Positions 41,379-52,913 of a DNA stretch of 64,000 bases are shown here, in pieces (the stretch's first letter is position 1; each line of letters begins with the position of its first letter). Below the pieces are notes generated by a model that was not told the origin of the DNA, searched no databases, and saw nothing but the letters and a program-made list of their open reading frames with translations. The translations under genes were made by a program, and so were the position numbers. Where the stretch lies: assembly GCA_902584445.1 (NCBI GenBank), contig CACHZY010000006.1, positions 1 through 64,000 of the forward strand, given 5' to 3'. Origin of the DNA: an uncultured Bacteroidota bacterium. GTDB lineage: Bacteria; Bacteroidota; Bacteroidia; Flavobacteriales; Flavobacteriaceae.

Positions 41379-42764
41379 ATGATTGAGATAAATGAGAACC
41401 TTAAGATTGATGACTTTAAGAGTAAAATTAAATTACTTTGGAGTTTATCGGGAGAAAAAATTCACAAAATAGTTTCTGAGTATGATGAGTCAAAAGGGGC
41501 TCCTGTTTTTACTATAAATGGAAAGTATGCTACACGCGGATGGACTGAGTGGACTCATGGTTTTCAATTTGGCTCGGCTGTTTTGCAGTTCGATGCTACT
41601 GGGGAATCTAGCTTTATAGATCTAGCTAAAGAACAAATTATTGATAAAATGGCAACTCATGTTAGCCATATTGGAGTTCATGACCATGGTTTTAATAATT
41701 TAAGTACCTATGGAAATTTATTGCGCTTGATGCATGAAGAAAAAATAGAATATAATAAGTGGGAGGCTGATTTTTATAAGCTGGCAATAAAAATTTCAGG
41801 AGCAGTTCAATCCTCTCGATGGACAGAATTACCTTTAGGGGGTTTTATTAGTTCTTTTAATGGACCTCATTCATTATTTGTTGATACCATTAGATCTTGT
41901 AGGATTTTAGTCGTAAGCCATCTGTTAGGACACACTTTTCATGGTGAAGGAGATAAAAAAATATCACTTTTAGATCGCGCTATTGATCATATAAAGGCTA
42001 CTGCAAAATATTCCATTTATTATGGAGACGGAAGGGATCAATACGATATTAGGGGGAGAACTGCTCATGAGAGCATATTCAATGTAAATGATGGTCAGTA
42101 TAGATGCCCAAACTCACAGCAGGGCTATACAGGATTTACCACGTGGACCCGAGGGTTAGCATGGGCAATGCTTGGTTTTGCTGAGGAATTAGAAGCATTT
42201 GAATTAATTGGTGATGAAGAATTTAAACACCTTGGAGGAGTTGAAAAGATCACTCAAATAATGCTTGAAGGTGCTAAAGCTACTTGTGATTTTTACATTG
42301 AACAGACCCCAACTTGTGGTGTGACATACTGGGATACTGGAGCACCTAATCTCCATAAATTAGGTGATTATCTTAATAACCCTGCTGATCCATTTAATGA
42401 TTGGGAGCCGGTGGATAGTTCTGCAGCTGCAATCGGTGCACAGGGATTATTACGGTTGGGTAACTATCTCATTAATAAGGACCAAAAGGAACAAGCAAAA
42501 AAATACTGGCAAGCCGGACTGACAGTCTTCAATTCTCTTTTACAAGAACCTTATCTAAGCACTGATACTTCTCATCATGGTTTGTTATTACATACAATAT
42601 ATCACCAGCCTAACGGTTGGGATCATATCCCAAAGGGAAGTAAAATTGCAAATGGGGAGTCTTGCATGTGGGGGGACTATCATTTTAGAGAATTGGCTAT
42701 TTATGTTGAGAAAATTATTAATAGTGAATCATACTACCAATTCACAAATTGTATCAAAAATTAA
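41379..42764 (+). CDS. GH88-like unsaturated glucuronyl hydrolase family protein
   Basis: 461 residues, no signal peptide, so cytoplasmic. (alpha/alpha)6-barrel features of GH88: GVHDHGFNNLSTYGNLL near the first catalytic-Asp position, YTGFTTWTRGLAWAMLGFAEE, VTYWDTGAPN and EPVDSSAAAIGAQGLLRL. GH88 enzymes hydrate the 4,5-unsaturated uronic acid left by polysaccharide lyases. It leads a run of six same-strand genes ending in a sodium symporter, so the substrate is probably an imported small uronide (inference). Divergence from classical GH88 leaves the exact reaction open. Confidence 0.82.
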   Translation: MIEINENLKIDDFKSKIKLLWSLSGEKIHKIVSEYDESKGAPVFTINGKYATRGWTEWTHGFQFGSAVLQFDATGESSFIDLAKEQIIDKMATHVSHIGVHDHGFNNLSTYGNLLRLMHEEKIEYNKWEADFYKLAIKISGAVQSSRWTELPLGGFISSFNGPHSLFVDTIRSCRILVVSHLLGHTFHGEGDKKISLLDRAIDHIKATAKYSIYYGDGRDQYDIRGRTAHESIFNVNDGQYRCPNSQQGYTGFTTWTRGLAWAMLGFAEELEAFELIGDEEFKHLGGVEKITQIMLEGAKATCDFYIEQTPTCGVTYWDTGAPNLHKLGDYLNNPADPFNDWEPVDSSAAAIGAQGLLRLGNYLINKDQKEQAKKYWQAGLTVFNSLLQEPYLSTDTSHHGLLLHTIYHQPNGWDHIPKGSKIANGESCMWGDYHFRELAIYVEKIINSESYYQFTNCIKN

Positions 42765-42767
42765 ATT

Positions 42768-43601
42768 GTGATTATACCTTCAAATAAAGACTTTTCTAAA
42801 CTTTGTATTCATACTCAAACTACAAAACCGTGGACTTTAGAAGAGTGTATAATAAATTTTGCATCAGCTGGAGTTAAGGGAATCTCAATATGGAGACATC
42901 TTTTAGAGGGAAAAGATCTTGATAAAATAAAGTTATTATTGGATTCAAATCGAATGGATGTGGTCTCTCTTGTTAGAGGAGGATTTTTCCCTTCAGTAGA
43001 TCCAAAAAAAAGATTATCAGCCATTGAAGATAATCAATTGGCAATCGAACAGGCTTCTGCCCTTGGGGCTCCATTAGTAGTCCTAGTTTGTGGTGCTGAG
43101 CCTAAACAATCTTTAGAGTCATCTCGTCAACAAATTAAAGAGGGTATAACCGCATTAATTCCTTTAGCTGAAAAGAGAAAGGTAAAGTTAGCCATTGAGC
43201 CTCTTCACCCAATGTATGCTGCAGAAAAATCTGCTATTTTGACTCTTGGTCAGGCGAATGAGATGTGTGAGTTGATTAATTCGCCTTGGGTTGGCATCGC
43301 AATTGATGTATACCATTTATGGTGGGATGATCAGCTAAAGAATGAAATCATTAGGTGTGGAAAAAATAAAAATATTTTAGCTTTTCATATTTGTGACTGG
43401 CGTGTAAATACGATTGATTTTTTAACTGATAGAGGGCTAATGGGTGAAGGATGTATTGATATTAAAAAAATTAGAGGATGGATTGAGGCGGCTGGTTTTG
43501 ATGGCTACAATGAAGTTGAAGTTTTTTCAGAACGATTGTGGAGTGGAGACCAAAAACAATATTTAAAAGACATAAAAAAATCTTACATAAATTACTGTTA
43601 A
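42768..43601 (+). CDS. sugar phosphate isomerase/epimerase, TIM barrel
   Basis: 277 residues, GTG start. Xylose-isomerase-like (AP endonuclease family 2) barrel. The four metal ligands are visible: Glu in LAIEPLHPM, Asp in IAIDVYHLWWD, His in LAFHICDWRVN and Glu in YNEVEVFSE. Members isomerise or epimerise keto-sugars or keto-acids. It starts 3 bp after the GH88-like gene and 7 bp before the oxidoreductase. Confidence 0.88.
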   Translation: MIIPSNKDFSKLCIHTQTTKPWTLEECIINFASAGVKGISIWRHLLEGKDLDKIKLLLDSNRMDVVSLVRGGFFPSVDPKKRLSAIEDNQLAIEQASALGAPLVVLVCGAEPKQSLESSRQQIKEGITALIPLAEKRKVKLAIEPLHPMYAAEKSAILTLGQANEMCELINSPWVGIAIDVYHLWWDDQLKNEIIRCGKNKNILAFHICDWRVNTIDFLTDRGLMGEGCIDIKKIRGWIEAAGFDGYNEVEVFSERLWSGDQKQYLKDIKKSYINYC

Positions 43602-43608
43602 TATCTTT

Positions 43609-44757
43609 ATGAAAACACATAAAATAGGAATTATCATGAATGGGGTTACCGGTAGAATGGGAACCAATCAACATTTAATTCGTTCTCTCGCAGCTATTAT
43701 TGCTGAAGGGGGTTTAAAAGCTACCGAAAACGATATCATTTTACCTGATTTGGTTCTAGTGGGACGTAATAAAAATAAACTTAAAAAACTTGCAGAAAGA
43801 GTTCAAATAGAAAACTGGACTACCAATTTGGAGGAGGTTTTAGCAGATAAAAATTATAAAATCTATTTCGATGCTCAAACCACTGGTAGAAGAGCTGATG
43901 CAATAAAAAAAGCAGTTGCTGCAGGAAAGCATGTCTATTGTGAAAAGCCCATAGCTACTTCAACTGAAATAGCACTTGAACTATACCGAGAGTGTGAAAA
44001 AGCTGGAGTTAAGCACGGTGTTGTACAGGATAAGCTTTGGCTACCTGGAATGCTAAAGTTGAAGGGTTTAATTGAAGATGATTTTTTTGGAAAAATTCTA
44101 TCAGTCAAGGGAGATTTTGGCTATTGGGTTTTCGAGGGGCATAAAATTCCTGCTCAAAGACCTAGTTGGAACTACAGAAAAGAGGATGATGGAGGTATAA
44201 TTGTTGATATGCTTTGTCACTGGAGATATGTGTTAGATAATATTTTTGGTCAAGTCAAGGGAGTTTTTTGTCTAGGCGCCACACATATTTCTGAGCGTAT
44301 TGATGAAAATGGAAAACCTTATAATTGTACTGCCGATGATGCTGCCTATTCAATTTTTGAGCTTGAGGGAGGTATTATTGCTCAATTTAACTCTTCTTGG
44401 ACAACCCGAGTAAGAAGAGATGACCTTTTAACCTTGCAGGTTGACGGGACCAAAGGATCTGCTGTAGTTGGTTTAAGGGACTGCTGGATTCAAGACTATG
44501 ACAGTACTCCAAAGCCTGTTTGGAATCCAGATATACCTAATCCAATAAACTTTAAAGAGGGTTGGACAAAAGTATCTGAGCATAAAGAATTCGAGAATGC
44601 ATTTAGGGCTCAGTGGGAACTATACCTTAAACACATATTGATTGACACGCCTTTTCCATGGAATCTAATGGAGGGGGCTAAAGGAATTCAGTTGGCTGAG
44701 TTAGGAATAGAAAGTTGGGAGAAAAAGACATGGATTAATATACCAGATTTACAATGA
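43609..44757 (+). CDS. Gfo/Idh/MocA family oxidoreductase
   Basis: 382 residues. N-terminal nucleotide-binding fold starting KIGIIMNGVTGRMG, an atypical glycine motif with a long insertion before LVLVGRNKNKLKKLAERV. VYCEKPIATS carries the catalytic Lys of the EKP motif. The C-terminal substrate domain has DDGGIIVDMLCHWRYVLDNIFG. Probably oxidises or reduces a sugar hydroxyl or ketone in the pathway. It overlaps the SDR gene by four bases. Confidence 0.87.
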   Translation: MKTHKIGIIMNGVTGRMGTNQHLIRSLAAIIAEGGLKATENDIILPDLVLVGRNKNKLKKLAERVQIENWTTNLEEVLADKNYKIYFDAQTTGRRADAIKKAVAAGKHVYCEKPIATSTEIALELYRECEKAGVKHGVVQDKLWLPGMLKLKGLIEDDFFGKILSVKGDFGYWVFEGHKIPAQRPSWNYRKEDDGGIIVDMLCHWRYVLDNIFGQVKGVFCLGATHISERIDENGKPYNCTADDAAYSIFELEGGIIAQFNSSWTTRVRRDDLLTLQVDGTKGSAVVGLRDCWIQDYDSTPKPVWNPDIPNPINFKEGWTKVSEHKEFENAFRAQWELYLKHILIDTPFPWNLMEGAKGIQLAELGIESWEKKTWINIPDLQ

Positions 44758-45524
44758 AAAATGCAGCTCTAATTACTGGTGGTTCCAGAGGTATAGGTCT
44801 AGGAATTGCCAAAGCACTTGTAAAGGAAGGTTATCGCGTTGCAATAAATGGAGTAAGGCCAATTCAACAGATTAAAGAAACTCTAAATGACCTCAAAGCA
44901 GATGGCGGTGAGGTGATATACTGTCAAGGTGATATTGGAAACTCTGATGAGCGTAAAAAAATTGTAGAAGAAATTAAAAATCAATGGGGTCATCTTCATG
45001 TTTTAGTTAACAATGCTGGTATTGCTCCACATGAGAGAAAAGATATTTTGGAAGCAGATGAAAAAAGTTTTGATAGATTAATTAATGTTAATCTTAAAGG
45101 CCCTTATTTTCTTACTAAGCAGGTAGCAAATTGGATGATAAAACAAAAAATTAAAAATCCTAAAAATGTATTTTCTATCATCAATATATCCTCTGTCTCA
45201 GCAACTGTAGCTTCAGTTAATAGAGGAGACTATTGTATTTCTAAGGCTGGCATGAGTATGTCTACAAAACTTTGGGCTGCTAGATTAGGAGAATATGATA
45301 TCCCTGTATATGAAATTCAACCGGGAGTTATCCGTACAGATATGACAGCTGGAGTGATTGAAAAATACGATAAATTAATAGCTGAGGGACTTACGGTTCA
45401 AAAGCGATGGGGAAAACCCGAGGATCTGGGTAAAACAGTTGTTGCCTTAGCCACAGGAATGATAGCTTATGCTACAGGTCAAATCATAAAAACTGATGGT
45501 GGAATGACCATACAAACCCTTTAA
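44754..45524 (+). CDS. short-chain dehydrogenase/reductase (3-ketoacyl-ACP reductase-like)
   Basis: 256 residues. Classical SDR: ALITGGSRGIGLGIAKAL (cofactor), LVNNAGIAPHE, INISSVSATVASVNRGDYCISKAG (Ser, Tyr-x3-Lys active site), IQPGVIRTDMT. The label FabG-like is by similarity; context points to sugar metabolism rather than fatty acids. Starts inside the end of the oxidoreductase gene (ATGA). Confidence 0.88.
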   Translation: MKNAALITGGSRGIGLGIAKALVKEGYRVAINGVRPIQQIKETLNDLKADGGEVIYCQGDIGNSDERKKIVEEIKNQWGHLHVLVNNAGIAPHERKDILEADEKSFDRLINVNLKGPYFLTKQVANWMIKQKIKNPKNVFSIINISSVSATVASVNRGDYCISKAGMSMSTKLWAARLGEYDIPVYEIQPGVIRTDMTAGVIEKYDKLIAEGLTVQKRWGKPEDLGKTVVALATGMIAYATGQIIKTDGGMTIQTL

Positions 45525-45526
45525 TT

Positions 45527-45754
45527 ATGAATTTAAAAAATATATGGAGAATTATTGTTATTGCAGTTTTTTTGTGTTCAGCTATTCAATTTTCGCCCTT
45601 GGTTATGGATGAAAATAAAATAGCTCCAAATTTTCTTGGGATGCCTTTTACTTTATGGTTTGGTATTTTAATTAGTCTATTAATAATTATTTTAACAGCA
45701 ATAGGAGGATATGTTTTTTCAAGACTTAAATCTGAGGAACTAAAAGAAGATTAG
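45527..45754 (+). CDS. small two-helix membrane protein preceding symporter (DUF3311-like)
   Basis: 75 residues with two hydrophobic helices (~7-25 and ~42-67) around NFLGMPFTLWFGILIS. Small proteins of this kind (DUF3311) often precede sodium:solute symporters and may be accessory subunits. It ends two bases before the symporter start and follows the SDR by 2 bp. Confidence 0.75.
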   Translation: MNLKNIWRIIVIAVFLCSAIQFSPLVMDENKIAPNFLGMPFTLWFGILISLLIIILTAIGGYVFSRLKSEELKED

Positions 45755-45755
45755 T

Positions 45756-47147
45756 ATGCTGAATTATCTTCTTATAATTGGAACAGTTTACATATTAGTT
45801 TTAATGTTTTTTTCATGGAGAACTAAAAAAAATATTAAAAACTCTACGGATTTTATGCTTGGTGGAAGTAAGATTGGAGTTGCAATTGGTTTAATGACTT
45901 TCGCAGCAACATTATTTAGCACATTTACCCTTTTGGGGATGCCAGACTTTTCAAGAGTTCATGGTGTTGGCGCTTGGATATTTCTTGCTTTTTCCGATGC
46001 GGTTATGGTTTTTTTAATTTTATGGTTCGGTTTTTATTTGAGGAAAAGAGTTGGGAATTCTCCTTATCAAGGAATGTCTGCATTACTTCAAAACTGTTAT
46101 CAAAATCGTTTGGCAGGCTATCTTTACTTTACAGCAGTATTTTTATTTCTTACCCCTTATATAGCAATACAAATTAGGGGTGTAGCGATCTTTTTAGTTT
46201 CTGCCTTCCCTAATTTTATTCCTGTCTGGGGATGGTCGATTGGTATAGTTTTGATAATGTTAATTTATTCAGAATTAGGCGGCTTGAAAGCAATTATTTA
46301 TGCCGACTCTTTACAGGGAACACTTTTATTAATTGTAGTTTGGATTGTAGCATTTAATTGTTTGAATGAGGTAGGTGGGTGGAGTGCACTTTTTGATAAA
46401 GTGGCTTCTGTAGACAAAAAATTACTTTCTACTCCAGGACCGACGGGATTGTTAAGTCCCCAATTTTTAATTGCCTCAGCTTTGGCTATTCTCATGATTC
46501 CAGTAACTCAACCTCAATTATCAACCCGTTTGGTAATAATGAAAAATTACAATGCTTTAAAAAAGATGGCTACCTCTGTTGGTTTTTTTGCTATTCTTGT
46601 TATCCTACCTACGATTATAATTGGAATGTATGGAGCAATTTTTTATGCTGAGGTAAGTACAGCAGAATTTTTAGGTGCTGTATTGTTAAATGAGCAACAT
46701 GAAATGATTGCTGCGCTTATAATTATTGGACTTTTTGCTGCCGCTATGTCAACTTCTGACTCACAATTATTTGCAATGGGAAATGAAATTAAGGGACTTT
46801 TAAGGTTAAAGGAAAATGATAATTTACGTCCCATAAGATTAGTAATACTTTTGTTTGCAATATCAGCATTAATTTTTTCTCTATTAAGTTCAGACGAGTT
46901 AGTACTTTTAGCGCGATTAAGTTTTTCTGGCACTGCCCTTATGGGCCCAATGATTTTACTGGGGATTTTTTCTCAAAAACCTCAAGGCTTTACAATGATA
47001 TTTCTCTCTTCTATTGGACTCTTGATTTTTATTTTTTCAAATTTGAACTTGTTTCCTAAAGAAATTTTTTCCCTTAGAACAGATCTCTTTCTCATGTTAT
47101 TTCTTGGTTTTTCTGCCCTTGTTAATTATTATTTATATAAAGAATAA
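45756..47147 (+). CDS. sodium:solute symporter family protein
   Basis: 463 residues with about 12-13 membrane helices. SSS family features: early STDFMLGGSKIGVAIGLMTFAATLFSTFTLLG, YSELGGLKAIIYADSLQGTLLL and AAAMSTSDSQLFAMGNEIKG. Probably imports the substrate handled by the preceding five genes (inference). It closes the operon; the tRNA-Asp gene follows 118 bp later. Confidence 0.92.
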   Translation: MLNYLLIIGTVYILVLMFFSWRTKKNIKNSTDFMLGGSKIGVAIGLMTFAATLFSTFTLLGMPDFSRVHGVGAWIFLAFSDAVMVFLILWFGFYLRKRVGNSPYQGMSALLQNCYQNRLAGYLYFTAVFLFLTPYIAIQIRGVAIFLVSAFPNFIPVWGWSIGIVLIMLIYSELGGLKAIIYADSLQGTLLLIVVWIVAFNCLNEVGGWSALFDKVASVDKKLLSTPGPTGLLSPQFLIASALAILMIPVTQPQLSTRLVIMKNYNALKKMATSVGFFAILVILPTIIIGMYGAIFYAEVSTAEFLGAVLLNEQHEMIAALIIIGLFAAAMSTSDSQLFAMGNEIKGLLRLKENDNLRPIRLVILLFAISALIFSLLSSDELVLLARLSFSGTALMGPMILLGIFSQKPQGFTMIFLSSIGLLIFIFSNLNLFPKEIFSLRTDLFLMLFLGFSALVNYYLYKE

Positions 47148-47265: not shown

Positions 47266-47339
47266 GGTCTGGTAGTTCAGTTGGTTAGAATACATGCCTG
47301 TCACGCATGGGGTCGCGGGTTCGAGTCCCGTCCAGACCG
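47266..47339 (+). tRNA. tRNA-Asp (GTC)
   Basis: A 74-nt cloverleaf. Acceptor stem GGTCTGG/CCAGACC, D-loop with AGTTCAGTTGGTTAGAAT, anticodon stem CATGC/GCATG with loop CTGTCAC (anticodon GTC at 47300-47302), T arm CGGGTTCGAGTCCCG, discriminator G; CCA is not encoded. A degenerate copy of its 3' part occurs 3.8 kb downstream. Confidence 0.97.
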
Positions 47340-47470
47340 CTAAAATAAATATTAAACCCTTAAGGTTGAACACTTTAGGGGTTTTGTTTTTTCAAATAGG
47401 GATAAATAGGGGGACAAATTTAGGTATAAGCGACTTTAAATTTTAATTGTTCGCACGAACTTTTATGATA
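47326..47470. repeat. left copy of the tRNA-Asp 3'-end direct repeat
   Basis: Starts in the tRNA T arm and matches 51136-51280 base for base in register (offset 3,810). The first 24 bases are identical; the remaining ~120 are imperfect but gap-free, including the terminator, two GGACAAATA-like units (47397-47420) and the GTATAAG/ACTTTAAAT stretch. Similarity fades after ~47470. This is the structure expected of an attL site or of a segmental duplication. Confidence 0.8.
47354..47392 (+). terminator. rho-independent terminator of tRNA-Asp
   Basis: A 12-bp stem (AAACCCTTAAGG with CTTTAGGGGTTT, two G-T pairs), loop TTGAACA, followed by TGTTTTTT. It lies 14 bp after the tRNA. Confidence 0.85.
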
Positions 47471-47564
47471 AATAATCATCTCAAGTTTTTCATCGGTTTA
47501 TACCATTCTTTTATGAATCATCTCACTAGGATTACTTCGGTTTTAACTTATGTTCGCGCGAACA
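47449..47564. repeat. pair of GTTCG-N2-CGAAC palindromes
   Basis: GTTCGCACGAAC at 47449-47460 and the perfect 14-base palindrome TGTTCGCGCGAACA at 47551-47564, centres 103 bp apart. In this AT-rich DNA two such GC-rich palindromes are striking. The first lies inside the duplicated flank and has a decayed counterpart near 51260. They could be protein-binding or recombination sites; no protein can be named. No gene is seen in 47343-47772 apart from these, the terminator and the repeats. Confidence 0.6.
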
Positions 47565-47736
47565 AAAGTCTTTAAATTGTAAAAAAACTATTAATTTTTT
47601 AAATATTCAATTTAAAGAAATCTAATTGATATATATGATTCAACAGTCTTTATCCCTATTGATTTTAATGGGATATCAATTTATCTGAATTATTCTCCCA
47701 CCTGCTTTTCAGTTCCACAATATTTTGCATTAACCA

Positions 47737-48337
47737 GTGAATTGATTTACATAAATTTTCCAGTAGAGAACTTTATATCCTATTATCACAATCACAATTA
47801 GGATTCAATTTCTCACAATAATCATATAGGGAAATACCTTTATGCAATTTGAATGAATTTTCAAACATTTTCTTGCTCTTAAATCCAGAAATTTTCCAAA
47901 CAAGATGAAGATCATTATTGATTTTTTTCGAATCTTTAGAAGATATCAGTTTATCAACTATTGAAATTGCATAAAGAAGTTTTGACTTGTTTAATTGATA
48001 GGTAATTTCTTTTTCTTCGAATTCCAATTGGTTAAAATTTGGATTTTTAAGATAAAAAAACTTTTTAATTCTATCAAATTAATTAATTTGATTTTCTTGC
48101 GAGTCCGGTCTTTTCAATTAATTTTTATTCGGGCCTATGAAAGAGAGCCTTTTTTCTATAATCACTCTTTACATTTTCAAATATATTTTTTGTAAAAGTA
48201 AAACCTAATCCAGGACCGATATATTAAGTTCTTTTTCATATGTTTCATTTTTTTTAGTCGTTATTTTTACATTCATCCGTGAATTGATTTACATAAACTT
48301 ATCTAAGTTTTAACTTTAAATTAATTTATGTAAATCA
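47737..48337. repeat. three copies of the TGATTTACATAAA motif
   Basis: GTGAATTGATTTACATAAA occurs identically at 47737-47755 and 48279-48297. Its core TGATTTACATAAA recurs inverted as TTTATGTAAATCA at 48325-48337, so 48285-48337 forms a 13-bp inverted repeat with a 27-base spacer just before the 48366 gene. They flank the AraC-like remnant. The 48082-48365 stretch contains no other recognised feature. Confidence 0.65.
47773..48078 (-). pseudogene. AraC-type HTH remnant
   Basis: An open frame of ~101 codons with no ATG; a TTG at 48027 would give 84 residues. The C-terminal part WKISGFKSKKMFENSFKLHK, then GISLYDYCEKLN, matches the second helix-turn-helix of AraC regulators (GF-S-x3-F-x3-FK-x3-G-S-x2-Y). 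The first recognition helix and any sensor domain are missing. It may be a decayed regulator or a tiny protein. It lies in the segment between the tRNA-Asp repeats. Confidence 0.45.
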
Positions 48338-48365
48338 TGTTTTCTTTTATTTTAATAAAATATTT

Positions 48366-49202
48366 ATGACAAAAGTTCGGCCTATAGATCTTTTAGTAAT
48401 ATCTGATGTACATCTAGGAACCTACGGATGTAATGCAAGAGAATTACTTCTCTATTTGAAATCAATTGATCCTAAAATAATTATTTTAAATGGTGATATA
48501 ATTGATATTTGGCAGTTCAAGAAACGATATTGGCCCAAATCTCACATGAAAGTAATCAAATACATACTTAAGTGGATTACTAATGGAAAGGAAATTTATT
48601 ATGTTACTGGAAATCATGATGAAATGCTCCGGAAATTTAAAGGATTTAAAATGGGAAAATTTGTCATTGTCAATAAAGTAATTTTAAATCTCGATGGACA
48701 AAAAGCTTGGTTTTTCCATGGAGACATTTTTGATGTCACTATGCAATATTCAAAATGGATTGCTAAACTTGGTGGAGTTGGTTATGACTTTCTGATCTTA
48801 ATAAACAGTTCCATCAATTTTATTTTGGAAAAAACAGGACGTAATAAAATGTCATTTTCCAAAAAAATTAAAAACAGCGTAAAGGGTGCTGTAAAATATA
48901 TCAATCGATTTGAAAAAATTGCTGTTGAAATTGCCTCATCTAATAATTTCAAATATGTGGTTTGTGGACACATACACCACCCCAAAATCGAAAAATTTAA
49001 AACAGTAAACAATACTGTTACCTACTTGAATTCAGGAGATTGGGTAGAGAATTTAACAGCATTAGAGTATAATAATACTAAATGGTCAATTTATAAACAT
49101 GATCAATCACATTTTGAAAAATTCGAAATGATTGATGAAGAAAAATCAAATAAGGAATTATTTGAAGAAATGATGACTGAATTTAATATTCTAAAGAAAT
49201 AA
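48366..49202 (+). CDS. LpxH-like metallophosphatase (UDP-2,3-diacylglucosamine diphosphatase family)
   Basis: 278 residues. Calcineurin-like phosphoesterase motifs: VISDVHLGT, ILNGDIIDIW, VTGNHDE, WFFHGDIFD and VVCGHIHHPK, all five metal-binding blocks. Similar proteins are annotated as UDP-2,3-diacylglucosamine pyrophosphatase. Being longer than LpxH (~240) and paired with a glycosyltransferase, it may act in another glycolipid pathway. It overlaps the next gene by one base. An inverted repeat precedes it. Confidence 0.85.
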   Translation: MTKVRPIDLLVISDVHLGTYGCNARELLLYLKSIDPKIIILNGDIIDIWQFKKRYWPKSHMKVIKYILKWITNGKEIYYVTGNHDEMLRKFKGFKMGKFVIVNKVILNLDGQKAWFFHGDIFDVTMQYSKWIAKLGGVGYDFLILINSSINFILEKTGRNKMSFSKKIKNSVKGAVKYINRFEKIAVEIASSNNFKYVVCGHIHHPKIEKFKTVNNTVTYLNSGDWVENLTALEYNNTKWSIYKHDQSHFEKFEMIDEEKSNKELFEEMMTEFNILKK

Positions 49203-50227
49203 TGAAGGTACTATATGCAATTCAATCTACTGGGAATGGGCATATTTGTCGTGCTAAAGAACTTATTCCCCACATGAGTCGTCGTTTTCAGTTTGATGTT
49301 ATTATCAGTGGACCAAAACCTCAATTAGATTTAGGTTATCCAATCAAAAAACACCTTAAGGGATTAACATTATACCATAACAAAAAAGGAGGTATGGATT
49401 GGACGAAAATCCTATTTAAGAATAATTTATTTTTGTTTTTTCGGGACGTAATCTCTCTAAGAGTTCAAGATTACGACCTGGTTATTAATGATTTTGAGCC
49501 AATCTCAGCATGGTCATGTAAATTAAAAGGGGTTCTCTGTTTTGGAATAAGTAACCAACTATCTCTTTGGAAAAAAGGTATTACAAAACCTAAAAAACGG
49601 TTTAGATTTACAATTCGTTTTCTAAAATATTTTGCACCAGTTAAAATAGGATATGGCTTACATTATCAAAAATTCAACAAAAAAATTTATCATCCTATCA
49701 TTCGATCAAAAGTGAAGAAGTTAAAAACCTTCAATGGTAACGGTATTGTCGTTTATTTACCTGCTTATGAAGACAAATCTATCCTTGAGATTACTAATCA
49801 GCTACCCTACCGAAAGTGGCATATTTTTTCAAGAAATGTATCACAAAAAAAGACAATTGGTTGTACTCATTTATACCCAATAAATGAAGATATTTTTTTA
49901 AAACTTTTATCAGGTGCGGATGGAGTAATTACAAATGCTGGATTTACTACAACCTCTGAGTCGTTGTTTTTGAATAAACCTTTGTTAGTAATCCCAATGA
50001 AGGATCATATTGAACAGATCTATAACGCTTTTTCCCTAAACAAAATGGGAGTTAAAGTCTTAAAAAAATTCTCTTTAAAACAATTAGACGAGATTGATGA
50101 GTGGTTAAAAAATCCACAAAGTATCAAAATTAAATTTGAAAATGAACTATCGGGATTGATAGACCAAGTAGCTCTTGATTTCATCAAGCAAAAATTTGAT
50201 CAAGATTCCCTAGTGAAAGTAAATTGA
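49202..50227 (+). CDS. MurG/MJ1255-like glycosyltransferase
   Basis: 341 residues, GT-B fold without membrane helices. Starts MKVLYAIQSTGNGHICRAKELIPHM, like the family that includes MJ1255, with GADGVITNAGFTTTSESLFLNKPLLVIPMKDHIEQIYNA as nucleotide-sugar binding C-terminal half. Likely transfers a sugar to a lipid or surface glycan acceptor. Its start is inside the stop of the phosphatase gene (TAATG), so the two proteins probably act together. Confidence 0.85.
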   Translation: MKVLYAIQSTGNGHICRAKELIPHMSRRFQFDVIISGPKPQLDLGYPIKKHLKGLTLYHNKKGGMDWTKILFKNNLFLFFRDVISLRVQDYDLVINDFEPISAWSCKLKGVLCFGISNQLSLWKKGITKPKKRFRFTIRFLKYFAPVKIGYGLHYQKFNKKIYHPIIRSKVKKLKTFNGNGIVVYLPAYEDKSILEITNQLPYRKWHIFSRNVSQKKTIGCTHLYPINEDIFLKLLSGADGVITNAGFTTTSESLFLNKPLLVIPMKDHIEQIYNAFSLNKMGVKVLKKFSLKQLDEIDEWLKNPQSIKIKFENELSGLIDQVALDFIKQKFDQDSLVKVN

Positions 50228-50363
50228 AACGACTTTTTTATTCAAAATTTAATCTACTATTATTTAATATTTATTTAAAGTTAAAATAACACAACTGTTT
50301 GGTTTATAATTTAATATTGTACTGATTTATTAACCATAAATTAATTCATTATTGTTTGGTTTT

Positions 50364-50391
50364 GGACCCTCATTTACCTGAAGGAGGGTCC
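50364..50391. terminator. hairpin after the glycosyltransferase gene
   Basis: GGACCCTC and GAGGGTCC form a perfect 8-bp stem with a 12-base loop, followed by ATTTAATT rather than a real T-run. It lies 137 bp after the glycosyltransferase stop. Probably a weak terminator or the start of a leader for the DUF6428 gene. Confidence 0.5.
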
Positions 50392-50484
50392 ATTTAATTC
50401 CATCTCGTAGAGTTTTATAAATCAGGTTTATCAAGTTTTTACACTTTTTAAAATCTTATAATAAAATTTAAGTAGGAATTAAGT

Positions 50485-50946
50485 ATGAGACTTTCAACTT
50501 TTAAAAAAATACTTAGTGAATTAGATATCCTAAAGTTCCAACTTCCCGACGGTCATTTTGTGCCTCCACATTTTCATATTACTGAAGTAGGAAATGTAAC
50601 ACGTAACTATATAGATTGTGGTGGTACTCTACGTCAAGAAAACAAACTAAACATCCAGCTTTGGGTGGCCTCGGATAAAGACCATAGACTAAAGCCTGGT
50701 AAAGTGATAGATATACTGAAATTAGCTGAAAAACAGTTTGAATTTTCAAATATAGATGTGGAAGTAGAATACCAACAAAGCACTATTGGTCGTTTTAAAT
50801 TGGCCTTTGACGGCTCTGTGTTTCAACTTATTTATACCCAAACGACTTGCCTTGCTCAAGAACAATGCGGTATATTGCAGGAAAAGCCTCGGGTACGTCT
50901 TACTGCAGATGGTTTAAGCTGTAATCCTAAATCGAATTGCTGTTGA
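50485..50946 (+). CDS. DUF6428 family protein
   Basis: 153 residues. HFHITEVGNVTRNYIDCGGT, then NIQLWVASDKDHR near the middle and a cysteine-rich C-terminus (TTCLAQEQCG ... LSCNPKSNCC) match the DUF6428 layout as I recall it. In Bacteroidota this gene is often beside arsR and arsenate-resistance genes; none are present here, so it looks like an orphan. The cysteines may bind metal or metalloid (inference). It is the last gene before the right-hand tRNA-Asp repeat. Confidence 0.75.
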   Translation: MRLSTFKKILSELDILKFQLPDGHFVPPHFHITEVGNVTRNYIDCGGTLRQENKLNIQLWVASDKDHRLKPGKVIDILKLAEKQFEFSNIDVEVEYQQSTIGRFKLAFDGSVFQLIYTQTTCLAQEQCGILQEKPRVRLTADGLSCNPKSNCC

Positions 50947-51021
50947 ATAGGACAAGTAATGATGCAATAATTCCATTTTGTAGGTTTTTATACATTTGGT
51001 TCATCGGTTTTGTTAAATCGT

Positions 51022-51066
51022 TTGTCCCCAGTAAGGGGATAACTTTTATCCCTATGGTAGGGATAA
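51022..51066. other. two adjacent stem-loops
   Basis: GTCCCC-AGTAA-GGGGAT (51024-51040) and TTATCCCTA-TGG-TAGGGATAA (51046-51066, 9-bp perfect stem). The second shares ATCCCTA/TAGGGAT with the first's arm sequence. They lie in the 503-bp stretch without genes after the DUF6428 gene, which otherwise holds only the tRNA remnant and its flank. Confidence 0.5.
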
Positions 51067-51092
51067 GAAAAATAAACCGAGAATGTAAAATA

Positions 51093-51149
51093 TTGGTTAT
51101 GAATGGATTAAGAGGTTGGGTTTCACCGGTTTAGTTCCCGTCCAGACCG
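51093..51149 (+). pseudogene. degenerate tRNA-Asp remnant
   Basis: The last 14 bases (TCCCGTCCAGACCG) equal the tRNA-Asp 3' end. Further upstream, ACCGGTTTAGT resembles the T arm and TTGGTTATGAAT resembles the D-loop TTGGTTAGAAT at nearly the same distance. The anticodon arm and 5' acceptor strand are gone, so it cannot be a tRNA. Confidence 0.6.
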
Positions 51150-51280
51150 CTAAAATAAAGATTAAACCCCTATGGTTCAACACTTTAGGGGTTTTGTTTT
51201 TCCAAAGGTGGACAAATAGGTGGACAAATTCAGGTATAAGCAACTTTAAATTATAATTTTTCGCACAAGCTTTTGTAAAA
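51136..51280. repeat. right copy of the tRNA-Asp 3'-end direct repeat
   Basis: Partner of 47326-47470. It includes two near-perfect tandem units GGTGGACAAATA / GGTGGACAAATT (51207-51230), clearer than in the left copy. Corresponds to an attR-like site or the original tRNA flank. From 51281 to 51449 no feature is recognised. Confidence 0.8.
51164..51202 (+). terminator. duplicate of the tRNA-Asp terminator
   Basis: Same hairpin as at 47354-47392 with one mismatch in the stem (AAACCCCTATGG with CTTTAGGGGTTT) and TGTTTTT after it. Confidence 0.75.
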
Positions 51281-51449
51281 TAAATTTTTTGATGGAAAAA
51301 GTAGGGCCTTCTTCATTTTAAGCGGTTTTATATAAATACTAATTTATAATTTTTAAAATGAACCAATTTCGATATTTTAAATTTTTAATTTCTTTGAGTA
51401 AACTTATAACTGAGAATAATCTAAAATTCAATAATGATAAATTATTGAT

Positions 51450-52913
51450 TTAAGTAGAATTTTTATTTAAGTAACTTATTAATTTAAAAATAGAACCAGT
51501 AAGGAAAATAGTTATCGTCCCAATAACAATAGTTAAATAAGGATGTGCCAAGCCTTCTTCAGTTTCATTAATTACAGGATATATTGTTAAAAATATAATC
51601 ATAATGATTCCTGAAAATAGACCTACAACTCCTGATCTGTTATCAGTTTTTGTGAAAACTCCCAGTAAGAATAAACCTAACATTCCTCCACTCAAAATTG
51701 AAGCGTATTTCCACCATATATCTAAGACACTTTTAGCATTAACCATAGCAAGCGCTACAAATACACTCAATATTGCAATTATTATAGAACTTAAATACAA
51801 AAAAATCATACTATTTCTCTCTGATTTGTTTTTTCTAAACAAGCGATTGTAGTAATCTTCCAGTAGAATCGTTGAAGAGCTATTAAAGCTTGTAGAAATT
51901 GTACTCATTCCAGCGGCAAAAATAGACGCTATGAGTAGTCCAGAAACTCCTACTGGAATATAATTAACAATAAAAAAAGGAAAAACTTTATCGCTCATTA
52001 CTTTATATTCATCGGGTAACCCGCCCTGAACACTAAAGAAAGCGTATAAAGATGTACCAATTAGTAAAAAAAATGCTGATACAGGAATATATAGTAGCCC
52101 CCCTGCTAGAGCAGAAGCTTTTGCTTTTTTGTCAGATTTTGAAATTAGATAGCGTTGAATGTAATTTTGATCAATTCCATAGTTTTGAAGATTAATAAAA
52201 ACTCCATAGATAAGAACAACCCAAAATGTTGATTCGGTTAATGAGGAAGAAAAGCTTCCCAGGCTAAACTTATCATCATTAAATGCAATATCATAAATTT
52301 GAGAGGGGCCGTTAGGCATTTTTAAATGAATTAATATTAAACATATAATAGCTCCAATAATTAAAATTATACCTTGGATTGCATCTGTCCATAAAACTGC
52401 AGTAATTCCTCCTAAAAGTGAATAGATTAGAACAAAAACCCCAGTCAATATTATTACCATGTTTATTTTCCACCCCAAAATAAAATTAAGGGAAATTGCA
52501 AGTAAATATAAAATTGTCCCAACCCTAACAATCTGAGTTAGTATATAGCATAAAGAGGCGTAAATTCTTGCCCATAAACCAAATCTATTTTCTAGATAAG
52601 AGTATGCCGATGTGCTTTTCATTCTTCGATAAATAGGAACAAAAAATATAATTGCCATTATTGAAGCAAGAGGAATAGATAAGCTAAATACAAAAGGATT
52701 CCAATTATTATTGAATGAGCTTCCAGGAAGAGCCAAGTAGCTAATACTACTAACAAAAGTTGCAAAAATTGACATTGAAACAACCCAATTAGGAATGTTA
52801 CCATGACCAAGTATAAATGACTTTGCACTACGTTTTTTTTTGTAAAAGAAGAAGCTCAATAGAAGAATAAAGATTAAGTATGCTAAAAAGACAATCAAAT
52901 CAACTGATTCCAT
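51450..52913 (-). CDS. sodium:solute symporter family protein
   Basis: 487 residues, about 13 membrane helices. SSS features: KKRSAKSFILGHGNIPNWVVSMSIFATFVSSISYL, YSLLGGITAVLWTDAIQGIILI and SIFAAGMSTISTSFNSSSTILLEDYY. Follows a sialidase-like gene by 12 bp on the same strand, so it may import the sugar that enzyme handles (inference). Only distantly like the symporter at 45756. Confidence 0.92.
   Translation of the reverse strand: MESVDLIVFLAYLIFILLLSFFFYKKKRSAKSFILGHGNIPNWVVSMSIFATFVSSISYLALPGSSFNNNWNPFVFSLSIPLASIMAIIFFVPIYRRMKSTSAYSYLENRFGLWARIYASLCYILTQIVRVGTILYLLAISLNFILGWKINMVIILTGVFVLIYSLLGGITAVLWTDAIQGIILIIGAIICLILIHLKMPNGPSQIYDIAFNDDKFSLGSFSSSLTESTFWVVLIYGVFINLQNYGIDQNYIQRYLISKSDKKAKASALAGGLLYIPVSAFFLLIGTSLYAFFSVQGGLPDEYKVMSDKVFPFFIVNYIPVGVSGLLIASIFAAGMSTISTSFNSSSTILLEDYYNRLFRKNKSERNSMIFLYLSSIIIAILSVFVALAMVNAKSVLDIWWKYASILSGGMLGLFLLGVFTKTDNRSGVVGLFSGIIMIIFLTIYPVINETEEGLAHPYLTIVIGTITIFLTGSIFKLISYLNKNST

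Follow-up and report, generated by a model that had tools for sequence, protein, structure and literature searches.

What is the 3.8-kb segment that adjoins the tRNA-Asp gene of an uncultured flavobacterium, and how did it come to lie there? The stretch analysed here, hereafter the window, comprises the first 64,000 nucleotides of contig CACHZY010000006.1 (assembly GCA_902584445.1, Flavobacteriaceae), and the segment in question is enclosed by direct copies of the tRNA 3' end and its flank. We consider it likely that positions 47341-51150 form a small non-autonomous integrative element, that is, a gene cassette, inserted site-specifically in the 3' end of tRNA-Asp by an integrase acting in trans. 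As judged by comparison among genomes, the insertion is precise, an empty site exists in a relative, the site has been used repeatedly, including for tandem insertions, the same ends enclose different cargo, and near-identical copies occur in diverged hosts. In what follows, G numbers designate genomes of the genus group (22 in all), G000 being the one that carries the window, L numbers designate fetched stretches or loci, and f11 is another family of the same order.

ARAGORN reports a single intact tRNA-Asp(gtc) at this locus, and the direct repeat of its 3' end is present at both borders of the segment, with the tRNA itself intact (Table 1). As the earlier note on this DNA had described, the two flank copies pair without gaps at an offset of 3,810 bp (a 152-nt family, 86% identity), the identical run being exactly 24 nt (47326-47349 = 51136-51159); over 47326-47470, 19 of 145 positions differ from the right copy. 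blastn recovers the repeat at 88.5% over 139 nt (E 6e-48), the next best match within the window having an E value of 1.1. The enclosed segment is AT-rich, as also claimed, with a GC content of 29.2% compared with a mean of 32.5% and a minimum of 30.4% in 28 other 3.8-kb intervals. The "degenerate tRNA" proposed to precede the right copy does not withstand scrutiny: its score is not above that of shuffled sequences (36 of 300 reach it, and 270 of 300 for the G006 copy), and the stretch so interpreted is part of a right-end module common to several elements (see below).

Table 1. Features of the tRNA-Asp locus and of the putative element (window coordinates)
Feature	Position	Strand	Remarks
Intact tRNA-Asp (gtc)	47266..47340	+	ARAGORN; putative integration target
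Left attachment (att) copy	47326..47349	+	Matches 51136-51159 at all 24 nt; core GTCCAGACCGC at 47330-47340
Left-end module	47341..47569	+	90% identical in G013:C46:93527-93756, before different cargo
Terminator-like hairpin plus T-run, left end	47354..47394	+	By eye, not folded; similar layout in other core flanks, by eye
Two arm-like repeats, GGGATAAAT and GGGGGACAAAT	47399..47419	+	Final 8 bases 12 bp apart
84-aa open reading frame (ORF)	47773..48027	-	ORF listing; matches an 80-aa ORF elsewhere in G000
Calcineurin-like metallophosphoesterase, 278 aa, cargo	48366..49202	+	Pfam PF12850/PF00149
Glycosyltransferase, 341 aa, cargo	49202..50227	+	PF13528; TIGR00661-like, under its cut-off
DUF6428 protein, 153 aa, cargo	50485..50946	+	PF20001, E 8e-55
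Right-end module	51000..51139	+	Common to elements with different cargo; ends with TTTCACCGGTTTAGTTCC plus C; 9 copies in 8 genomes
Arm-like sites in right module, TTTGTCCCC, GGGGATAA, TTATCCCTA and TAGGGATAA	51021..51066	.	By eye
Right att copy	51136..51159	+	Core at 51140-51150; same 24-nt identity block
Pre-existing flank	51151..51280	+	Corresponds to the one flank of the empty site in G007 (88%)

The comparison of relatives for a single tRNA-Asp flank lacking the segment, which the earlier note had recommended, yielded such an empty site in G007, where tRNA-Asp lies between two SSS transporter genes with one tRNA flank and nothing more between them. In G006, the same element occupies the same place. 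On this comparison, the 3.8-kb segment is a site-specific insertion at tRNA-Asp. The body of the element (47561-50946) differs between G000 and G006 at 13 of 3,386 positions (99.6% identity), compared with 884 of 18,814 (4.7%) in the flanks; with the two border intervals left out of both groups, all seven 500-bp intervals of the element, and none of the 36 background intervals, are at least 99.2% identical. Because G000 is about equally near to the empty G007 (95.0% identity on the left, 96.8% on the right) and to G006 (95.1% on both sides), inheritance of the element from a common ancestor of G000 and G006 is unlikely, and the pattern of identity indicates that the element probably moved between lineages. 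The right flank, 51151-51280, is laid out like a left end, with a hairpin followed by GGTGGACAAAT twice at 12-bp spacing; given this layout, it is probably an older left end, and the site was probably used before.

The right-end module connects the element in the window to others with different contents. Five copies were found in four of the 22 genus genomes. A search of genome_contigs (84,980 species) with the 18-mer TTTCACCGGTTTAGTTCC returned 16 stretches, seven of them titled Flavobacteriaceae or Bacteroidetes (eight matches) and nine others; the core GTCCAGACCGC directly follows the 18-mer in seven of the eight Flavobacteriaceae or Bacteroidetes matches and in none of the nine others. Of the copies counted in Table 1, the window's included, eight have the tRNA-Asp core; that of the ninth, in G013, where there are two right ends, is decayed. 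Three cargoes are known for the module: that of the window and G006; that of the inner G013 element (1.6 kb), whose 153-aa protein has no Pfam match exceeding its cut-off; and that of the elements in L198, L203 and L208 (0.76-0.77 kb), which consists of one DsrE/SaoD-type gene (NF040913, tested on L203). For the three remaining copies (G008, the outer G013 element and L199), the cargo lies off the contig. Elements stand in tandem in L198 and G013, and other inserts of about 1 kb are present in G009 and G019, so that across these relatives the tRNA-Asp site holds different cassettes, singly or in tandem. The small elements of L198 and L208 are identical at 752 of 757 positions (99.3%), compared with 224 of 315 (71%) in trxA, the host gene adjoining the tRNA; to judge by these identities, the 0.77-kb element looks to have been transferred between distant hosts, perhaps between genera. 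No recognisable recombinase was detected in the six complete elements, which represent the three cargoes (window, G006, inner G013, second element of L198, L203 and L208); being non-autonomous may hence be the normal state of this family.

At the level of the order, a survey of 395 genomes for the right end, with two candidates scored per genome, gave only short, weak matches outside G000, and a survey for the core pattern gave a match in 180 of the 395 genomes. Twenty stretches from the order were studied further; they were picked by eye, most of them among the core-pattern matches listed. In f11, where 14 core copies without an intact tRNA are shown, the stop codon of the preceding ORF falls exactly 6 nt before the core in five of the 14 (L210, L211, L212, L219), two being too near the contig start to tell; one of the ORFs ending in this way has a type IX secretion system (T9SS) sorting domain, and another is plastocyanin-like.

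The left ends share a plan, namely, the tRNA core, a hairpin with a T-run (by eye) and two short repeats, the sequence of which varies from element to element. Spacing was scored in 45 non-redundant flanks (of 55) from 40 loci, some of which are final flanks rather than left ends of complete elements. The best repeat spacing is exactly 12 bp in 23 of the 45, compared with 8.1% of shuffles (3.6 flanks expected; the binomial value, 5e-14, is too strong because the flanks are partly related), and 22 of the 45 reach a score that at most five of 100 shuffles reach. Arm-type sites are a general feature of tyrosine integrases. On this ground, and because a single 28-nt repeat is found at the left end of the second element of L214 and again beside its integrase gene, we infer that the short repeats are candidate arm-type integrase sites. 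The sharing of an arm motif between left and right ends was scored in 17 elements against 200 shuffles each. No shuffle reached the observed score for the second element of L198, L203, L208 or either element of L214; the numbers were 3 for L024, 7 for G013, 9 for L210 and 29 for the first element of L198, and 106-196 for six others. As measured by these scores, the evidence for left-right sharing is good in some relatives and suggestive in the window element, and several elements show none. When each left end was scored against the right ends of all other elements, its own partner came out best only for the second element of L214 (32.0 vs 10.4) and, slightly, for L024 (11.2 vs 10.4), the best rivals of window-type elements including members of the same family.

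Elements that carry an integrase have the same layout. At tRNA-Asp in f11, L214 and L215 contain the core, a hairpin, GGTGCCTAAATAGGTGCAC at 12-bp spacing (by eye; these repeats fall mostly beyond the stretch scored for spacing) and an integrase gene, which in L214 is followed by an HTH_17 gene; in L220, also with the tRNA-Asp core, the integrase is at the right end. The integrases of L214 (two), L215 and L220 contain Arm-DNA-bind_5, SAM_5 and Phage_integrase domains. G000 itself contains an element at tRNA-Met (L098:8119-9930, G000:C3) in which a hairpin and a GGGTACTA repeat at 12-bp spacing precede the gene for a 533-aa tyrosine integrase; integrase-bearing elements laid out in this way also occur in G019, at tRNA-Met (L112), and in G016, at tRNA-Phe (L111; repeat by eye). 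The integrase of the tRNA-Met element is one of the two PF00589 matches in G000, the other being a 309-aa ORF that looks Xer-like (by eye). A distinct integrase family of 347-349 aa, represented in five genus members (L101-L105), adjoins tRNA-like fragments (by eye), and its G006 member is preceded by an 11-bp tandem repeat, ACGTGCCAAAA. In L033 (G012:C21), a GGTGTCGGTT repeat at 12-bp spacing comes after tRNA-Asp, together with a series of small, unassigned ORFs; G012 has one core copy.

We propose the following route of insertion. Attachment would take place at the core GTCCAGACCGC, within the 24-nt identity block. On its left, the element would contribute a tRNA 3' end of its own, followed by a terminator-like hairpin and candidate arm-type repeats; on its right, it would contribute the conserved end module, in which comparable sites are present. 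Since it brings its own copy of the 3' end, the tRNA would be rebuilt intact, and the displaced 3' end would come to lie at the right together with the old flank; by this reading, the 3' end of the tRNA-Asp now at 47266-47340 would be the att copy borne by the element. A tyrosine integrase would be provided in trans by another element, and the cassette would travel as an excised circle.

Several observations weigh against this proposal. A helper with these ends was not found in searches of viral, phage, plasmid and genus sequences: three right-end patterns gave no matches in IMG/VR, blastn with the ends gave none in the plasmid collection, and in the phage collection the same search matched 3 and 18 records through short, weak alignments (best E 0.01). 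Among the genus genomes, no contig carries both one of the 67 integrase-domain (PF00589) matches and one of the 29 core copies; this is weak evidence of absence, since many of these contigs stop at the tRNA. The core is absent from the stretches fetched around 15 of the 67 matches. G000 being 69% complete, a resident helper may be missed. A general paired-GGACAAAT pattern, which speaks neither for nor against a helper, gave at least 120 stretches with seven integrase-like matches; three of these matches lay no more than 1.5 kb from the repeat, on stretches in which ARAGORN detected no tRNA. The pattern combining the core with GGACAAAT gave two stretches, with the match inside ORFs. The left end in the window scored best at a spacing of 10 rather than 12, the G006 copy scoring best at 12; the left-right arm motif is weak in the window element (10 of 200 shuffles reach its score) and in that of G006 (12 of 200); in four of the five integrase-less cassettes of f11 the sharing is not above chance; and the right end of the window element, like those of most elements, is not singled out as the partner of its own left end. 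Finally, the tract of high G000/G006 identity reaches some 1.2 kb to the left of the tRNA and takes in intervals 46001-47000 (the last kilobase of the upstream SSS gene, 98.4-99.0%), so that a contribution of homologous recombination is possible on that side.

This last observation is the argument for an explanation under which the element shared by G000 and G006 spread by homologous recombination through conserved chromosomal flanks and not by site-specific recombination. To the right, however, G000/G006 identity falls to 88% in interval 51001-51500, which begins near the right att copy. In the L198/L208 pair, with trxA at 71% and different right-hand sequences, flank homology is an unlikely carrier of the 0.77-kb element, and the first insertion as well as the tandem arrays would be left unexplained. 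We consider spread of this kind improbable. A different explanation holds that the segment is a strict-sense cis-mobilisable element (CIME): a larger integrative and conjugative element (ICE), island or prophage would have been reduced to a fixed remnant, without its integrase and unable to move any more, and the repeats would have arisen by accretion of decayed elements. The lack of a recognisable integrase, the resemblance of the right flank to an older left end and the decayed core at one of the two G013 right ends are all compatible with such a history. Near-identity is not what immobile remnants are expected to show, whether of the element body across lineages 4.7% apart or of the 0.77-kb copy across the hosts of L198 and L208, and the same ends hold different compact cargo in other genomes, which makes a fixed remnant unlikely. 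The suggestion in the earlier note of an element at tRNA-Asp that has lost its integrase thus survives in part: an integrase-less insertion agrees with the empty site in G007, the same element in G006 and the same ends around other cargo; loss of an integrase finds no support in the six complete elements, none of which has a recognisable one.

The other suggestion of that note, a tandem duplication of the tRNA flank that was later filled by an unrelated insertion, draws on the 86-88% similarity of the flanks over about 140-150 nt. It is contradicted by G007, which has a pre-insertion site with one flank and no duplication, and by G013: the left flank in the window is closer to the left end of a different element there (90% over 229 nt) than to its own right flank (87% over 124 nt). 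The right-end module, moreover, recurs with other elements. We reject this explanation as highly improbable and retain insertion of a mobile cassette as the likely account.

In the cargo of the window element, the start of the glycosyltransferase gene overlaps the end of the metallophosphoesterase gene by one base. The pair had been described as LpxH-like and glycosyltransferase; both enzymes are indeed present, but the phosphoesterase scores far under the LpxH cut-offs (52.1 vs 134 bits and 43.3 vs 190 bits). The DUF6428 gene was identified correctly, whereas the supposed AraC remnant is an open 84-aa ORF without a Pfam match at E 0.01. No recombinase domain was found in the four main ORFs of the element, ORFs of at least 35 aa having been listed and those below 84 aa not scanned. 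PADLOC gave no matches for eight cargo proteins, and we accordingly claim no defence role for the cargo. The phosphoesterase-glycosyltransferase pair occurs at other places in four genus members (G005, G010, G016 and G021), with glycosyltransferase identities of 47-86% and, for the G010 copy, 88% identity over 1,961 nt; on the fetched stretches, no tRNA-Asp core lies beside the pair in any of the four. The same genes in the same place without the repeat, an arrangement that the earlier note had regarded as evidence against insertion, were not seen. The 84-aa ORF is 82% identical at the DNA level to a chromosomal 80-aa ORF of the same genome (L134:7074-7316). That counterpart is flanked by fadB/SCP2-like and etfB-like genes, and the G005 pair occupies what appears to be the same interval (both read by eye). 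DUF6428 matches were found in 50 of 100 genomes searched. In three of four loci (L162, L165 and L171, not L177), the gene adjoins others read, with no family scan, as ArsR, arsenate reductase and an ACR3-type transporter; the DUF6428 gene in the window stands alone, unlike these three.

The surroundings of the tRNA also vary. In several genus members, a trxA-like ORF lies directly 5' of tRNA-Asp. In the window, a five-gene block (41379-47147) is located between trxA and the tRNA, and its counterpart in G008 is beyond the right att copy. Because the placement of the block differs among the window, G008 and other genus members, it may have moved around the tRNA.

Some features of this system are familiar from other elements. 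CIMEs are defined as decayed ICEs or integrative and mobilisable elements (IMEs) onto which another element accretes (PMC5704250). The cassettes resemble the CIMEs described there in having att copies at both sides, no recognised integration or transfer genes, and tandem occurrence; in contrast to them, the ends of the window family surround several compact cargoes, the smallest a single gene, and the contigs read showed no adjacent ICE or IME. On the question of descent from a decayed ICE or IME, the genus, IMG/VR, genome_contigs and plasmid searches turned up no element that combines these ends with an integrase. tRNA-targeted cassettes of additive flexible genomic islands are reported for Ca. 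Actinomarinales (PMC7771536) and for Alteromonas fGI1 (PMC4119200), and tRNA-Lys islands of 330 bp-42 kb for Ca. Methylopumilus (PMC10872708). All three share with our elements the addition of cassettes at a tRNA, and the Actinomarinales and Methylopumilus cassettes also share direct repeats of part of the tRNA at the borders. The portions of these descriptions seen come without shared end modules, arm-type repeats or a helper integrase. For Actinomarinales, there is evidence of cassette transfer between genera, the inter-genus example being about 75% similar (PMC7771536), compared with 99.3% identity and defined ends for the element pair here.

Like our elements, the ssrA islands of Dehalococcoides (PMC3146451) occur in tandem, are bounded by repeats of the 3' end of an RNA gene and in some cases have no integration module; they differ in using a serine recombinase and a transfer-messenger RNA target, and sixteen have their own integration module. 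Clusters of attC sites lacking integron integrases (CALINs; PMC11389934) are likewise integrase-less gene cassettes. They can be mobilised in trans, as is inferred for the present elements, but the site here is the 3' end of a tRNA and has arm-like repeats. Tycheposons (PMC10872708) are similar as tRNA-associated, cargo-carrying elements of aquatic bacteria; they span 4-200 kb and are marked by a tyrosine recombinase, unlike the window element (3.8 kb) and its relatives (0.8 kb), which have no recognisable one. The ICE ICEEaIII is reported to insert at several tRNAs including tRNA-Asp (PMC8694125). Among the papers listed by literature searches, none dealt with tRNA-Asp cassettes in such flavobacteria. 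In their att copies without an integrase, tandem accretion and tRNA targeting, the elements resemble CIMEs, and the addition of cassettes at tRNAs is known from Ca. Actinomarinales, Ca. Methylopumilus and Alteromonas; the present system adds two defined end modules between which cargo is exchangeable, a single-gene element near-identical in distant hosts and a layout common with integrase-bearing elements.

Gene blocks without an integrase are easily mistaken for decayed islands. The defined ends, the empty site, the exchangeable cargo and the near-identical 0.77-kb single-gene copy suggest that such blocks are active gene carriers in bacteria with small genomes, and the ends offer a handle for finding more cassettes, for identifying the helper integrase through its arm sites and for testing mobilisation in trans directly. 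It is possible, and we advance this tentatively, that flavobacteria of this kind maintain an integron-like economy without integrons, in which tRNA-Asp would act as a common docking site for exchangeable cassettes. Such cassettes, each of one to a few genes, would have nothing but end modules of their own, would be mobilised in trans by tyrosine integrases drawn from autonomous elements of various arm specificities, and would pass between distant hosts.

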